This document shows, piece by piece, positions 57,981-64,000 of a DNA stretch of 64,000 bases. The DNA lies in assembly GCF_942548115.1 (NCBI RefSeq), contig NZ_OW824151.1:2914001-2978000 (forward strand), written 5' to 3'. Under the pieces are notes generated by a model that ran no database searches, had not been told where the DNA came from, and was given only the letters and a program-made list of their open reading frames with translations. This DNA is from Aeromicrobium sp. Leaf245 (GTDB taxonomy: Bacteria; Actinomycetota; Actinomycetes; Propionibacteriales; Nocardioidaceae). The position numbers were made by a program, and so were the translations under genes. Each line of letters begins with the position of its first letter. Position 1 is the stretch's first letter.

Positions 57981-58014
57981 CTCGACCCTGTCACCGCACG
58001 GTGGCAGGGTCGAG
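57981..58014 (+). terminator. 15-bp hairpin: operon terminator overlapping the next promoter
   Basis: CTCGACCCTG (57981-57990) pairs with CAGGGTCGAG (58005-58014), continued by one G-U pair and CACC/GGTG around GCAC. It ends the sugar operon. The right arm contains CAGGGT (58005-58010), the -10 for the DinB gene whose ATG is at 58017. Confidence 0.6.
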
Positions 58015-58016
58015 TC

Positions 58017-58643
58017 ATGCCCGACCCCATCGGAAGCGACCCCGTCAGAAGCGACACCACCAGGAGCGAGACCGCCAAGGACGACCTGCACCGCTACCTC
58101 CACGGGGCGCGCGACGCCCTGCGCTTCAAGATCGACGGGCTGGGTGAGCTCGACGCCCGCCGCAGCCTCACCCCCACCGGGCTCAGCCTGCTCGGTCTCG
58201 TGCACCACACGGCGGTCTGTGCGGCCGAGTACTTCGGCGTGGTCTTCGACCGGCCCTTCCCCGAGCCGACGCCCGACGTCGACGCCGACCCGCACGCCGA
58301 CTTCGTGGTCCCGTCCGAGGTCTCGCTGGAGGACGCACTGGCCTACGTCGACCGTGCGTGGGCGCATGCCGACGCCACGATCCAGGCGCTCGCGCTCGAC
58401 GCCGAGGGCACCGTGCCCTGGTGGAGCGGTCCGCGAGCCCGGGTCACGCTGCACCAGGCCATGGTCCACATGATCGCCGAGGCCCACCGTCACGCCGGGC
58501 ACGCCGACGTGCTGCGCGAGGGTCTCGACGGCTCCGCGGGCCTACGTCCGGACTCCACCAACCTGCCCGAGGGCATGGACTGGGCCGAGCACGTGGCACG
58601 GGTCGACCGCGTGGCCAACGCGGCTGCGGCACGTGTCCCCTGA
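58017..58643 (+). CDS. DinB-like (DUF664) protein
   Basis: A 208-residue DinB/YfiT four-helix bundle protein of the mycothiol-transferase-like superfamily. Metal-type His residues are in LLGLVHHTAVCAAEYFG and MIAEAHRHAGHADVLRE. An acidic, repetitive N-terminus (SDPVRSDTTRSE) is probably disordered. ATG 58017 with CAGGGT 6 nt upstream. Possibly a thiol S-transferase; substrate unknown. Confidence 0.88.
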   Translation: MPDPIGSDPVRSDTTRSETAKDDLHRYLHGARDALRFKIDGLGELDARRSLTPTGLSLLGLVHHTAVCAAEYFGVVFDRPFPEPTPDVDADPHADFVVPSEVSLEDALAYVDRAWAHADATIQALALDAEGTVPWWSGPRARVTLHQAMVHMIAEAHRHAGHADVLREGLDGSAGLRPDSTNLPEGMDWAEHVARVDRVANAAAARVP

Positions 58644-58657
58644 AGGACGGACCAGTC

Positions 58658-59107
58658 TCAGAGCTCGCCGCGCTGCACCTGCGTGGTGCAGGTGTACGTG
58701 CCGGACGCGGCGATGGGGCTGCCCTTGATGGTCCAGTCCTCGGTGTCGCCGGCGCCTAGGTCCTCGATCGTGGCGACCCCGCGGGCGACGACGTCGCTGC
58801 GGGCGGTGATCCAGCTGATGGTGATGACGTAGTCCTGCTCGTCGTCGGTGGAGTTCTTCACCTTGCCCTTGACCGAGTTGCTGCCCTTCTCGGTCGGGCA
58901 GGCGCCGAGGGTGACGTCCTTGAGGGCGCCCTCGAAGTCCTCGATCTCCGGCACCTCGGGCAGGTCCTGCGGCGAGGTGGTCTGCTTGTCGGCCGCCTTC
59001 GCCGCGGTCTTCTTGTCATCGGCCTTGTCGTCGTCGCCGCCGGTGCAGGCGGTCAGCAGGCCGCAGGTCAGGACGGCGACCGCGGTGGCACGCGCGAAGG
59101 TGTTCAT
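58658..59107 (-). CDS. Small lipoprotein coupled to the surface-repeat gene
   Basis: A 149-residue lipoprotein with lipobox LLTAC (Cys21) and a Lys/Asp-rich tether to about residue 50. The C-terminal domain (about 55-149) is a beta-rich FxLYD-like module with VKGKVKNSTDDEQDYVITISW and DTEDWTIKG, and a Cys pair (LGACPTEK, TYTCTTQ). ATG 59107 overlaps the giant protein's stop (ATGA), so the two are probably translated together and may act together at the envelope. Confidence 0.82.
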   Translation of the reverse strand: MNTFARATAVAVLTCGLLTACTGGDDDKADDKKTAAKAADKQTTSPQDLPEVPEIEDFEGALKDVTLGACPTEKGSNSVKGKVKNSTDDEQDYVITISWITARSDVVARGVATIEDLGAGDTEDWTIKGSPIAASGTYTCTTQVQRGEL

Positions 59108-62100
59108 CGAGGGTCTCCCTGTTCGGTGGTGGTCCGGCGGCGCAGGAGGAGCAGGCCCCCCGCGAGCAATCCTAGGGCGAGCAGCAACAGGCCGGCGGCG
59201 GCGCCACCCGTGTCCGGGAGGATGCCGAACGGCCCGTCGCCGCGGTCGTCGGCGTCGCCCGCGTCACCGTCACCCCCCGGGTCGTCCCCGTCGCCGTCGC
59301 CGTCGTCGACCGGACCGACGGCCGGCACGACCGCCTGGTCGACGTCGGATTCGATCGAGCCGTCGGGGCCGCTGCCGGTGGCCGTCGCGACGTTCACGAC
59401 CGCGTTCGACGCAGCCTCCTCGGCGGTCACGACGTGCTCGGCGACGCAGGTGGTGCTCTCCCCTGCCGGCAGCGTGGTCTCGGCGCAGACGATCTCGTCG
59501 CCGGCCGCGTCGAGCATCGAGTCCTGGACCGCGACGCCGTCGATGCGGACGGTGCCGGTGTTCGTCACGACGAACTCGTAGCGGATGGTCTCGCCGGCGT
59601 CGGCGAGGTCGTCGCCGTCCTCGTCCTGCAGGACGCCGGTCTTGAGGACCTCCAACGACGCGACGGAGACGATGTCGGTGGTCACCTCGTCGTCGTCGGT
59701 CACCGCGTCGCCGACCGGCGGCTCGCCGCTCGCGGCCGCCGTGTTGACGACCTCACCGGCGTCGGCGGCGGCCTCGGTGACGGTGTACGTGGCGGGGCCG
59801 CAATCGATCGTCTCGCCGGGCGCGACCGTGGCCTGCTCGCACGCGACGTCGCCGCCGACGAGCGGGTCGGTGACGGTGACGGCGTCCAGCGTCACGTTGC
59901 CGGTGTTCTCGACCTCGAAGGTGTAGTCGATGGTGTCGCCCGCGTCGGGTCGACCGGTGTCGTTGGCGTCGAGCACGATGCCGGCGGACTTGCGCAGCTC
60001 CAGCGACGGCGCGGCCTCCAGCGACGTCGTGATGGTGTCGGCGTCGCTCGGCTCGAGCCCGGCCGGCCCGGTGGCGCGGGCGGTGGCTGTGTTCTCGACC
60101 TCGCCGGCGTCCAGGTCGGCCTGGGTGACCTCGTGGTCGACGGGGCCGCACTCGACCGTCTCGCCCGGGCCGAAGGGGACGGCGGGGCACGAGACGGCAC
60201 CGACGAGCGGGTCCTCGATCGTCGTGGCGCGCAGCGTGGTCGGGCCGGTGTTCCGGACGGTGAACGTGTACTCGATGGTGTCGCCCGCGTCGGCGCGGCC
60301 GTCGCCGCCGTCGTCGCTGCCGGTGGCCTCCTTGGTCAGCTCCAGCTCGGCCGTCTGCGCAACCTGCGTGGTCAGCGTGTCCGAGCCGGTGACCGGGTCG
60401 CCCTTGGGGTCGTCGGCCGAGACGGTCGCGGTGTTGACGACCTGGCCGGCGTCGACGTCGGCCTGCGTCAGCACGTACGGGTCGGCGGCGCAGTCGACGC
60501 CCTCGCCGGGCTCGAGGTCCCCGGTCGGGCAGGTGACGTCACCGAGCCGCGGGTCGTCGACGGTCACGTCGGCCAGCGTCACGGCGCCGTCGTTGGTGAC
60601 CCGGAAGGCGTAGTCGATGGTGTCGCCGGCGGACACGACGCCGTCGTCGTTCGCATCGACGACGCCGTCGGGGGCCGTCTTCTCCAGCAGCAGGACGCGG
60701 GAGCCGGCGAACGTCGTGCTGGTGGAGTCGGCGTCCGGCCCCGGGGCGCCGGTCACCGAGTCGGCCGCGGCCGTCGCGGTGTTGTTGACCGCGCCGGAGT
60801 CGACGTCGGCCTGGGTGAGGACGTACGGGTCGGCGGTGCAGTCGACGGACCGACCGGGCTCGACCGGGGTGGTCGGGCAGGTCACCGCGCCGACCAGCGG
60901 GTCGGTGACGGTCACGTCGGTCAGCGCGACGTTGCCGCGGTTGAGGACGGTGAAGGAGTACGCGATCGTGTCGCCGGCGTCGATCCGGCCGTCGGCGCCC
61001 ACCTGGACGTCGCCGGCGCGCTTGTCCAGCTCGAGCACGGGCTCGCGGTCCACGGGGGTCCGCGTCCCGGCGGTGTCGTCGACGTCGTCACCGAGCGGCG
61101 GCGAGGCCACGACCCTGGCGGTGTTGACGACCTCGCCCGCCTCGACGTCGGCCTGCGTGAGGACGTAGGTGACGGGGTCGCAGGCGGTGCTGCGGCCGGG
61201 GGCAAGGGTGGTCGCGGCGCAGTCGACCTCGCCGCCGAGCAGCGGGTCGGTGACGGTCACGTCGGTCAGCGTCACGTTGCCGGTGTTCTCGGCCGAGAGC
61301 GTGTAGACGATCGAGTCGCCCGCGGAGTCCTGGCCGTCGCCGTCGGTGTCGAGCACCTGCCCGGCCGACTTCGTCAGGGTGACCGCGGGGGCCGCGGCCA
61401 CCTCCTGGACCTCGGTGTCCTCGGCGGGGTCGACGGCGCCGGTCCGGCCGAGCGCCCGCGCGACGGCGGTGTTCTCGACCTCGCCGGCGTCGACGTCGGC
61501 CTGCGTCAGCTCGTACGCGACCGGGCCGCAGGTGACGGAGCCGCGCGGCGCGACCGTGCCGGCCGGGCAGCCGACGGCGCCGACCATCGGGTCCTCGATC
61601 GTGGTCCCGCGGACGGTGGTCGTGCCGGTGTTGGTGACGGTGAAGGTGTAGGAGATCGTGTCGCCGGCGTCGGCCCGGCCGTCGGGGCCGGTGGCGACGT
61701 CGCCCGCGGTCTTGGTCAGCGCGATGGACTCCGAGCGCGCGACGGGGCTGGTCTCGGTGTCGGCGTCCGCGACGTCCTCGCCGTCCGCGCCGACGCCGGT
61801 GACCGTGGCGGTGTTGACGACCTGGCCGGCGTCGACGTCGGCCTGCGTCAGCACGTACGGGGCGTCCGCGGCGCACTCGACGGTGTCACCCGGCTCGACG
61901 GAGCCGGCGTCGCAGGACACGGTGCCGACGAGCGGGTCGGTCACGTCGAGCTCGTCGACCGTGACGTTGCCGGGGTTGGACACGACGAAGGTGTAGTCGA
62001 TGGTGTCGCCGGCGTCGACGCGGCCCGAGTCGTTGGCGTCCGCGATCGTGCCGCCCGTCTTCTCCAGCTGGACGGCGGCGGCGCGGACGAGCGCGGTCGA

Positions 62101-64000
62101 CGTCGAGTCGGTCTGCTCGTCCGGGGGCCCGACGACCGAGTCGGCCGTGGCGGTGGCGGTGTTGTTGACGGCGCCGGCGTCGACGTCGGCCTGGGTCAGC
62201 TCGTACGGAGCTGCCGTGCAGGTGACCGAGCGGTCGGGAGCAAGCGCGTCGGGCGTGCAGTCGACGACGCCGACGAGCGGGTCGGTGACGGCGACGTCGG
62301 TCAGCGCCACGTTGCCCGTGTTCCGGACGGTGAACGTGTAGATGATCGCGTCGCCCGCGCCCACCCGGCCGTCGCCGCCGAGCGCGACGGCACCGGCCTG
62401 CTTGTCGAGCGTGAAGGTCGCGGTGCGGGCCAGCGAGGTCTCCGTGCCGGCGGTGTCCTTGGCGGCGTCGCCAGCCGGCGGGTCGGCGGTGACGGTGGCG
62501 GTGTTGCGCAGGACGCCGGCCTCGACGTCGGCCTGGGTCAGGACGTAGGTGACCGGGCCGCACGGCGTGGTGCCACCCGGGGCGAGCTCGTCGCTCTCGC
62601 AGGCGACCGCGCCGCCGAGCAGCGGGTCGACGACACTGACGTCCGAGAGCGTCACGTTGCCGGTGTTCTCGACGGCCAGGTCGAAGGTGATGGTGTCGCC
62701 CGCTGACGGTCGACGGTCGTCGTCGAGGTCCTGGACGGTGCCGGCGGTCTTGGTCAGCTGCACGGCGGGCTCGCGGTCCAGCGACGTGGTCACCGTGTCG
62801 TCCTCGGGACCGACGACGCCGTCCTGGCCGAGCGCGGTGGCCGTGGCCGCGTTGACGACCTCGCCGGCGTCGAGCTGCGCCTGCGTGACCGGGTAGGACA
62901 CGGGGCCGCAGGTCACGGACCCCTCCGGGCCGAAGACGTCGGTCGGGCACGAGACGGCGCCGAGCAGCGGGTCGTCGACCGTGACGCCCCGCAGCGTGGT
63001 CGTGCCGGTGTTGGTGACGACGAACCGGTAGTCGATCGTGTCGCCCTCGTCGGCGCGGCCGTCGCCGCCGTCGTCGCTGTCGACGACCTCCTTCTCGAAG
63101 GTGAAGGACTCGGCTTGCGCGACGTCCCGGCGGGCGGACGAGTCGTCGCCGACCTCGGTGCCGTCGGCGCCGGTGGCGGTGACGTCGGCGGTGTTCAGGA
63201 CCTCGCCGGCGTCGACGTCGGCCTGGGTCAGCTCGTAGGGCTCGACGGCCGCGCAGTCGGTGATGTCGCCCGGCGCGAGGGTCGTGACGTCGCAGTCGAC
63301 CTCACCGACGAGCGGGTCGGTCACGACGACGTCCCGGAGCGTCACGTTGCCGAGGTTCTCGACCACGAAGGTGTAGGCGATGGTGTCGCCGGCGTCCTCG
63401 CGGCCGGAGTCGTTCGCGTCGACGACCTCGCCTGCGGTCTTGACCAGCTGCACGCCGGCGCCGCGGCCGAAGGTCGTGGTGGTGGAGTCGGCGTCCGGCT
63501 CCGGCGCGCCGACCACTGAGTCGGCCGTGGCGGTGGCGGTGTTCCGGACCTCTCCAGCGTCGACGTCCGCCTGGGTGAGGACGTAGACGTCGGCGGTGCA
63601 GTCGACGGCGTCGCCCGGGGCGAGCGGACCGGCCGGGCAGTCGACCTCGCCGAGGAGCGGGTCGCTCACCGCGACCCCGGTCAGGGCCACGTTGCCGGTG
63701 TTCCGGACGCGGAGGGTGAAGGGCAGCGTGTCGCCCTCGTCGACCCGGCCGTCGGCGCCGAGGACGATCGCGCCGGCCTCCTTCTCCAGCAGCAGGGCGG
63801 GCTCGCGCTCGAGGGGCGTGCGGGTGGCGGCCTCGTCGTCGACAGGGGTGCCGTCGGCGCCGAGGGCCTCGACCGTCGCGAGGTTGGTCCGCTCGCCGGC
63901 CTCGACGTCGGCCTGGGTGAGGACGTAGGTGACGGGGCCGCAGGGCGTCGTGCCGTCGGGCGCCAGGGTGTCGACGGCACACGGGACGGCGCCGCCGAGC
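59104..64000 (-). CDS. Giant sortase-anchored surface protein with DUF11-type repeats (N-terminus off the window)
   Basis: At least 1631 residues; the frame is open to the right edge and the start is not seen. The apparent start at 63690 is only an internal GTG. The visible part has 13 full domains plus one partial, each about 113-117 residues, with AGDTIxYTFxVxNTGNVTLxDVxVTDPLVG, two Cys about 13 apart, and a YxLTQADVDAGEVxNTA strand. After the last domain come an Asp/Gly-rich linker, LPDTGG, one membrane segment, and RRR tail: a sortase signal. Domains repeat as A-B-C-D blocks of exactly 460 residues. Its role is likely adhesion or a cell-surface stalk (inference). Confidence 0.93.
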   Translation of the reverse strand, partial: LGGAVPCAVDTLAPDGTTPCGPVTYVLTQADVEAGERTNLATVEALGADGTPVDDEAATRTPLEREPALLLEKEAGAIVLGADGRVDEGDTLPFTLRVRNTGNVALTGVAVSDPLLGEVDCPAGPLAPGDAVDCTADVYVLTQADVDAGEVRNTATATADSVVGAPEPDADSTTTTFGRGAGVQLVKTAGEVVDANDSGREDAGDTIAYTFVVENLGNVTLRDVVVTDPLVGEVDCDVTTLAPGDITDCAAVEPYELTQADVDAGEVLNTADVTATGADGTEVGDDSSARRDVAQAESFTFEKEVVDSDDGGDGRADEGDTIDYRFVVTNTGTTTLRGVTVDDPLLGAVSCPTDVFGPEGSVTCGPVSYPVTQAQLDAGEVVNAATATALGQDGVVGPEDDTVTTSLDREPAVQLTKTAGTVQDLDDDRRPSAGDTITFDLAVENTGNVTLSDVSVVDPLLGGAVACESDELAPGGTTPCGPVTYVLTQADVEAGVLRNTATVTADPPAGDAAKDTAGTETSLARTATFTLDKQAGAVALGGDGRVGAGDAIIYTFTVRNTGNVALTDVAVTDPLVGVVDCTPDALAPDRSVTCTAAPYELTQADVDAGAVNNTATATADSVVGPPDEQTDSTSTALVRAAAVQLEKTGGTIADANDSGRVDAGDTIDYTFVVSNPGNVTVDELDVTDPLVGTVSCDAGSVEPGDTVECAADAPYVLTQADVDAGQVVNTATVTGVGADGEDVADADTETSPVARSESIALTKTAGDVATGPDGRADAGDTISYTFTVTNTGTTTVRGTTIEDPMVGAVGCPAGTVAPRGSVTCGPVAYELTQADVDAGEVENTAVARALGRTGAVDPAEDTEVQEVAAAPAVTLTKSAGQVLDTDGDGQDSAGDSIVYTLSAENTGNVTLTDVTVTDPLLGGEVDCAATTLAPGRSTACDPVTYVLTQADVEAGEVVNTARVVASPPLGDDVDDTAGTRTPVDREPVLELDKRAGDVQVGADGRIDAGDTIAYSFTVLNRGNVALTDVTVTDPLVGAVTCPTTPVEPGRSVDCTADPYVLTQADVDSGAVNNTATAAADSVTGAPGPDADSTSTTFAGSRVLLLEKTAPDGVVDANDDGVVSAGDTIDYAFRVTNDGAVTLADVTVDDPRLGDVTCPTGDLEPGEGVDCAADPYVLTQADVDAGQVVNTATVSADDPKGDPVTGSDTLTTQVAQTAELELTKEATGSDDGGDGRADAGDTIEYTFTVRNTGPTTLRATTIEDPLVGAVSCPAVPFGPGETVECGPVDHEVTQADLDAGEVENTATARATGPAGLEPSDADTITTSLEAAPSLELRKSAGIVLDANDTGRPDAGDTIDYTFEVENTGNVTLDAVTVTDPLVGGDVACEQATVAPGETIDCGPATYTVTEAAADAGEVVNTAAASGEPPVGDAVTDDDEVTTDIVSVASLEVLKTGVLQDEDGDDLADAGETIRYEFVVTNTGTVRIDGVAVQDSMLDAAGDEIVCAETTLPAGESTTCVAEHVVTAEEAASNAVVNVATATGSGPDGSIESDVDQAVVPAVGPVDDGDGDGDDPGGDGDAGDADDRGDGPFGILPDTGGAAAGLLLLALGLLAGGLLLLRRRTTTEQGDPR
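59650..63789 (-). repeat. Three 1380-bp superrepeats of four domains (A-B-C-D)
   Basis: Unit 1 at 63789-62410, unit 2 at 62409-61030 and unit 3 at 61029-59650, each 460 codons. Domain A carries TADSV followed by G(A/P)P. B carries a DANDSGR-like EF segment and ends near VAQ/VAR-x-E. C carries DGRAD and TNTGTTT. D carries an extra Gly (PLLGG) and a (D/S)PPxGD tail. A partial D (64000-63790) precedes unit 1, and a divergent capping domain (59649-59311) follows unit 3. Confidence 0.88.

Follow-up and report, generated by a model that had tools for sequence, protein, structure and literature searches.

Gene, protein and setting

We analysed a window of 64,000 nucleotides (G000:C1:2914001-2978000) from the single-contig, 3.46 Mb genome of Aeromicrobium sp. 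Leaf245. The window ends inside a giant surface-protein gene on the minus strand (59104..64000), whose stop codon lies at 59104-59106 and whose frame is open up to the window edge, so that 1,631 codons fall within the window. Followed past the edge, the frame runs without a stop from G000:C1:2992426 to the stop at 2973104 (window 59104), 6,440 codons in all. The best-looking start is an ATG at G000:C1:2992363 behind GGGAG, which gives 6,419 codons; residues are numbered here from the next ATG, at G000:C1:2992309 (6,401 residues).

The N-terminus of the protein is a hydrophobic stretch that, read by eye, resembles a signal peptide. A GEVED domain (residues 366-440) is the sole domain found in the head region and is followed by 51 DUF7507 (CLIPPER_2) domains, d01 to d51, that tile residues 448-6332 end to end, with a single residue between matches at only 2 of the 50 joints. 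The family profile, PF24346 (curated cut-off 27), matches 14 stretches of the window part with 913.7 bits and scores 232.7 bits at the N-terminal end. The C-terminus consists of an acidic linker, the LPDTGG sorting motif (59203..59220, minus strand), a hydrophobic tail and RRR. The anchor named in a first-pass annotation of this DNA is thus present, with an NCBIfam LPXTG_anchor score of 13.6 bits, below the cut-off of 15.9. The genome holds two sortase genes, both away from the giant gene.

Next to the array, a 149-residue lipoprotein-like gene (58658-59107, minus strand) overlaps the stop codon of the giant gene in an ATGA and has AGGGAG upstream, which suggests that the two genes may be co-translated. 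Its NCBIfam matches, to a WKL family lipoprotein and an FxLYD domain, are weak and both below their cut-offs. A gene of the mycothiol-S-transferase family (PF04978) lies beside the array at 58005-58643 on the plus strand.

Fold and predicted covalent locks

A Lys-Asp-Asn isopeptide triad occurs in 51/51 domains, as do exactly two cysteines. The d39 triad sits at positions 6, 46 and 86, and this K-D-N spacing of 40/40 is that of the CLIPPER_2 example in the available text of PMC12617251. We predicted the structure of d39-d42 from an alignment of 77 of the 102 listed relative segments plus three window segments (pLDDT 96.7, pTM 0.80). Seven strands are seen in the first domain, and the model is consistent with the roughly seven-stranded Ig-like fold expected of DUF7507 / CLIPPER_2. 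No PDB sequence matches the profile at E 0.1, and the CLIPPER structure 9IFR, named in the available text of PMC12617251, is absent among the best 50 Foldseek matches listed. The top matches are 6xi3 (four repeats from a large adhesion protein), 4p99 (a calcium-stabilised ice-binding adhesin) and cadherins; since TM-scores over the whole unit do not exceed 0.36 among the 50 matches listed, these say only that the unit is a chain of Ig-like domains. For the head we modelled a homologue, using an alignment of six rows, and confidence was poor (mean pLDDT 42.9).

From the conserved residues we infer one isopeptide and one disulfide lock per domain, the former a Lys-Asn bond with Asp as its catalyst. 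At about 4 nm per Ig-like domain, a chain locked in this way would form a rod that is stiff, resists proteases and, at a length of very roughly 200 nm, holds the head off the cell. In the sister family DUF11, the isopeptide bond is described in PMC12617251, as far as its available text goes, as conferring heat and protease resistance. The architecture, with a GEVED-containing head, 51 DUF7507 domains and LPDTGG, points to a sortase-anchored fibrillar stalk, presumably with an adhesive role. With a predicted isopeptide bond and disulfide in each of its 51 domains, the stalk is a candidate very tough protein rod for materials work.

A period of four domains along the stalk

Mean domain identity at lags 1-8 is 45.6, 48.3, 45.7, 63.2, 44.7, 48.0, 45.6 and 55.9%, and the autocorrelation of domain identity over all 51 domains peaks at lags 4, 8, 12 and 16. 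The period-4 z is 17.3, a value reached in 0/300 shuffles of domain order. For 48 of the 51 domains the nearest relative lies at a multiple of four (1,000 shuffles: mean 12.2, maximum 25); the exceptions, d01, d50 and d51, fall outside the four-class scheme. On the domain tree the four class labels require 7 changes compared with a shuffled mean of 28.8, and a tree constrained to group neighbours in fours is rejected (lnL difference 1493, AU p 0.0007). Same-letter domains thus cluster above neighbours, as the first-pass annotation had anticipated when it proposed a domain tree as a check on its ABCD order. Its claim that the protein grew by a four-domain unit and not by single domains is supported by the label test and the AU rejection, and single-domain growth is ruled out by the lag profile, the label test, the constrained tree and the nearest neighbours. 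The order also extends into the flank, upstream as far as d02. In summary, the four-domain order of the giant stalk is confirmed and extended.

Classes A, B, C and D of that annotation are called Y, Z, W and X here. Read from the window edge towards the C-terminus, all on the minus strand, the series starts with a partial d38 (63799..64000), which is in phase as class X, the D domain that had been noted at this edge. A first complete tetrad comprises d39 (Y, 63457..63798), d40 (Z, 63109..63456), d41 (W, 62767..63108) and d42 (X, 62419..62766), and a second comprises d43 (Y, 62077..62418), d44 (Z, 61729..62076), d45 (W, 61387..61728) and d46 (X, 61039..61386). These are followed by d47 (Y, 60697..61038), d48 (Z, 60349..60696), d49 (W, 60007..60348) and d50 (59659..60006), which is in phase for class X and has its nearest neighbours elsewhere (best match d20, at 54%). 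The last domain, d51 (59314..59658), is divergent and fits no class.

The short motifs first proposed as class signatures hold in part. TADSV marks class A in d35, d39 and d43 but reads AADSV in d47; the VA-Q/R-x-E ending of class B is found in d40 and d44 but not in d36 or d48; and TNTGTTT-LR/VR of class C is found in d37, d41 and d45 but not in d49. In class D, PLLGG is carried by d34, d38, d42 and d46 (PLVGG in d50), and PP-x-GD by d34, d42, d46 and d50 but not by d38. Each class signature is carried by most members, not all.

Two blocks and the length of the unit

The stalk contains two four-domain families: eight tetrads in d02-d33 and four in d34-d49. Lag-4 identity is 66% within d01-d33 and 63% within d34-d50, and unit-by-unit identity drops with distance inside each block, with d26-29 versus d30-33 reaching 82%. 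Between the blocks, in-phase units are 44-53% identical, about the level of different classes. When classes were matched between blocks, shifts of one and three were rejected (AU p 0.010 and 0.047), while shifts of zero and two (p 0.085 and 0.229), full separation of the blocks (p 0.182) and eight class clades (p 0.407) were not. The classes of the two blocks are thus without clear correspondence, and the blocks may share a single origin. The signatures discussed above accordingly describe the second block only.

Upstream of the window, in the region of d17, d21 and d24-d33, an insertion resembling DADG-DAGR in the first loop is common to d24, d25, d28, d29, d32 and d33. Its presence in two adjacent classes looks as though it had passed from one neighbour to the next before the tetrad was copied.

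Three consecutive blocks of exactly 460 codons had been reported, and we recovered them as d39-42, d43-46 and d47-50. The length constraint since duplication that had been read from them is only partly supported. Every run of four domains whose first member lies between d34 and d47 (14 runs) totals 460 codons, so that the exact length holds throughout d34-d50. It does not carry over to the first block, since four-domain sums lying inside d01-d33 range from 457 to 472 codons, and one of the exact units is reached through offsetting changes, a one-residue insertion in d48 balanced by a one-residue deletion. Length constraint is local at best.

Age of the duplications and growth of the stalk

NG86 dN and dS are compressed by the extreme third-position G+C of this gene, and we used fourfold sites instead. 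Fourfold-site identity (same amino acid) at odd lags is 59.7%, where composition alone predicts 56.0%. It rises to 70.3% in each of the two youngest groups (d24-29/d28-33 and d34-37/d38-41) and to 86.6% for d28/d32. DNA identity is about 62% at lag 1, 72% at lag 4 and 89% in the youngest pair; along the lag-4 stretch d25-d28 versus d29-d32 it is 83-89% per domain. The youngest visible event is the copying of about one tetrad, from d25-d28 to d29-d32.

Lag-4 identity exceeds that at lags 8 and 12, which local exchange would also give, and ongoing conversion between every fourth domain would make the period uninformative about the original duplications. Under such concerted evolution, however, synonymous sites should match too, and lag-4 pairs outside the two youngest groups have a fourfold-site identity of 60.0%, next to the 59.7% of odd lags. 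The fourfold sites show no sign of ongoing gene conversion, and we regard this explanation as very improbable. Synonymous sites at background in most lag-4 pairs instead indicate that most of the duplications are old. Saturation of these sites also leaves most single duplication events without a date or mappable ends. A closely related gene with one tetrad more or fewer, which would show a duplication in progress, was not found.

We propose that tandem, in-frame duplication of segments of four domains accounts for most of the stalk's growth, which took place in two blocks and most likely through recombination between copies four domains apart. Once neighbours had diverged, lag-4 copies would have been the sole good partners for unequal exchange, and the register would thereby have been kept. 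The classes would still be visible in the proteins by descent, even though synonymous sites are back at background. It is very probable, in our judgement, that the protein belongs to a known kind of covalently locked adhesin stalk and that its tetrads reflect an unusually regular history, with growth mainly by four-domain duplication. The two families, the isopeptide triad in every domain and the old age of most duplications all go beyond the first-pass annotation. With twelve tetrads in two families, the gene offers a clean case for studying the control that recombination has over the unit by which giant proteins grow, and its bacterial host is useful because strains can be compared and arrays engineered.

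Periods in related arrays

To place this order in its family, we surveyed 79 arrays (loci L023-L117 plus the window), setting a minimum of 8 domains. Arrays that agreed exactly in domains 3-5 entered the count as one, and many are truncated, either by the contig or by the stretch retrieved. Among these 79, period four is a significant best period in the window only, and 0/78 of the others show a whole-array period of four. A period of two with z >= 3 occurs in six others (L030, L037, L068, L075, L078 and L110), and ten further arrays added two clear period-two cases, L124 and L129. Within the genus, a relative of the unit is encoded in 13 of the 48 other genomes searched; the same-genus genome G016 has a contig that carries a DUF7507 array. 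None of the six same-genus arrays of at least 8 domains that we examined has a sustained period of four, and same-genus arrays include a four-domain duplication (L026) and a period of two (L030). The array at L057 (uncultured actinobacterium, CALMXK010000089.1) resembles the giant protein in its DUF7507 stalk and its homologous head, 42% identical over 361 residues, but has 17 domains counted and no period. Relatives without period four indicate that the fold does not dictate four, and that the order belongs to each gene's history.

Several of the relatives are themselves very long. In Arsenicicoccus cauae, L068 has a run of neighbours at offset four, and its full-length form, L118+L119, is an open frame of 8,199 codons with a local four-domain run. 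An open frame of 7,045 codons in Arsenicicoccus piscis (L075) has neighbours at multiples of six, and an 8,010-codon frame in Nocardioides litoris (L078, G197:C13:116690-137722) holds 61 DUF7507 domains with a partial period of two. A weak match at G266:C11:270644-271159 lies within a 10,009-codon open frame of another actinobacterial genome; in the stretches searched (L127+L128), the profile found no array of at least 4 domains.

We also considered whether DUF7507 arrays follow an odd/even rule in general. Judged by sign, it held in 18 of 29 array clusters besides the window (p 0.26). Across 38 representative arrays, with full-length L118+L119 in place of L068, 428 of 787 domains have their nearest neighbour at an even offset (expected 374; 0/200 shuffles). 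Without the six strongest arrays, the count falls to 271 with 272.5 expected (32 arrays), so that a family-wide even offset is rejected. Odd/even order characterises certain arrays and not the DUF7507 family as a whole. Period three shows no overall excess in the same domains (211/787, with 235 expected), and two arrays lean towards it, L041 (8/9 domains) and L116 (9/16).

Possible growth from one to two to four domains

Growth by tetrads could itself have been the last step of a hierarchy in which single domains gave an AB array, and a doubled ABA'B' unit was then amplified separately in two blocks. Such one-two-four growth refines the tetrad-duplication explanation and does not oppose it. 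In an unconstrained LG+F+G4 tree of d02-d49, W and Y separate from X and Z across both blocks. The two alternative splits cost 19.8 and 23.4 lnL units, though neither is rejected by the AU test (p 0.18 and 0.11). Only the odd shifts between the blocks were rejected above, and not the even ones. Of 18 possible ways to group the eight classes, odd/even ranks best (contrast 2.32, against 1.14 for the next), though being the best of 18 equals only about p 0.06. A richer-model tree of all 51 domains recovers the odd/even split in the first block and not across both, placing W of the second block beside X of the second block with negligible support, and the second block by itself fails to separate WY from WX. 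The significant period two of six other arrays also speaks for this hierarchy, but nothing consistent emerged when their classes were mapped on the odd/even classes of the window. The trees thus mildly favour one-two-four growth, which we consider a serious though unproven possibility, a little short of an even chance.

Slightly more tentatively still, the stalk could be a protein-level counterpart of the higher-order repeats of satellite DNA. The unit would have doubled from one to two to four, each doubling fixing a new register, since unequal exchange needs copies that are still alike. If this were true, superrepeat order would preserve past recombination like a fossil, and every rung of the ladder would be visible in DUF7507 stalks, whose orders are one, two, four and perhaps three and six.

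Do the four classes have separate roles?

A four-part stalk could also be kept in order by selection, each class having its own structural role in interfaces, bends or binding sites. Class-diagnostic residues do exist, several of them in inter-strand loops, and class identity survives at the amino-acid level though synonymous sites are at background. We compared these residues with 100 simulations that used the same tree and placed no constraint specific to any class. The two blocks have 10 and 16 class-diagnostic columns, below the 19.6 and 31.4 expected from simulation, although the calibration is imperfect, as the simulations underpredict between-class identity (41.6 and 39.7%, with 45.4 and 47.2% observed). 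Class-specific selection was rejected on this basis, since diagnostic columns are not in excess over the simulated alignments. The first block and the second differ in which residues are diagnostic, and relatives have other orders or none. Four functionally distinct classes are accordingly unlikely, and distinct roles for the four parts are not supported. We claim only that there is no evidence of class-specific constraint; descent alone accounts for the class residues here, and a visible ABCD order need not imply four functions.

Selection might instead have acted on the divergence of adjacent domains, which would avoid misfolding and leave the tetrad as a by-product. The lag-1 identity fits the rule of under 50% for large multidomain proteins given in the available text of PMC8201768, and that of PMC1553488 says that selection of this kind may promote the copying of several domains together. 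The arrays L024, L025 and L036, however, have adjacent identities of about 69-74%. Similar neighbours in these other DUF7507 arrays indicate that the fold tolerates them, and we consider misfolding avoidance improbable, if marginally less so than separate class functions. Tetrad duplication followed by descent remains our preferred reading.

Comparison with known systems

The superrepeats of titin and nebulin are textbook material, and those of titin are tied to the thick filament. Like titin, the giant protein is a very long Ig-like chain with long-range ordered repeats, but nothing here points to a partner filament. Most descriptions of bacterial stalks present them as series of domains that are almost identical or loosely alike, and a case of so regular a tetrad is unusual for this bacterial stalk family. 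In the limited collection of literature that we searched, no description of four-domain superrepeats in DUF7507 stalks turned up.

Periscope Proteins are likewise stalks on bacterial surfaces, and the number of domains copied in tandem determines how long they are. In the parts of PMC8201768 available to us, these proteins vary among strains and have neighbouring domains that are 82-100% identical (the SHIRT example), whereas neighbours in the giant stalk are 46% identical. The giant protein is not a Periscope Protein by the definition of repeats at least 80% identical, since even its lag-4 domains average 63.2%. The closest likeness is to the DUF7507 / CLIPPER_2 stalks (PF24346) of PMC12617251, with which it shares the profile, the Lys-Asp-Asn triad, the cysteines, tandem arrays and an anchored surface protein. 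The available text of that paper describes tandem arrays and DUF11/DUF7507 alternation and mentions no four-domain order; here, 51 domains form sustained tetrads in two blocks.

Domain repeats that grew several at once are described in the available text of PMC1553488, with units of seven in nebulin, mostly four in fibronectin-3, five in cadherin, and two as the commonest overall. Both the evidence, the autocorrelation of domain identity, and the inference are shared with our case; that text stresses eukaryotes, in contrast to the bacterial locked stalk with two families analysed here. Growth by several domains at once is therefore known, including in giant animal proteins and in the four-unit repeats of fibronectin-3, as far as that source reaches. 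What is new is how regularly, and on what scale, it has occurred in a bacterial isopeptide stalk, and that one chain holds two families.
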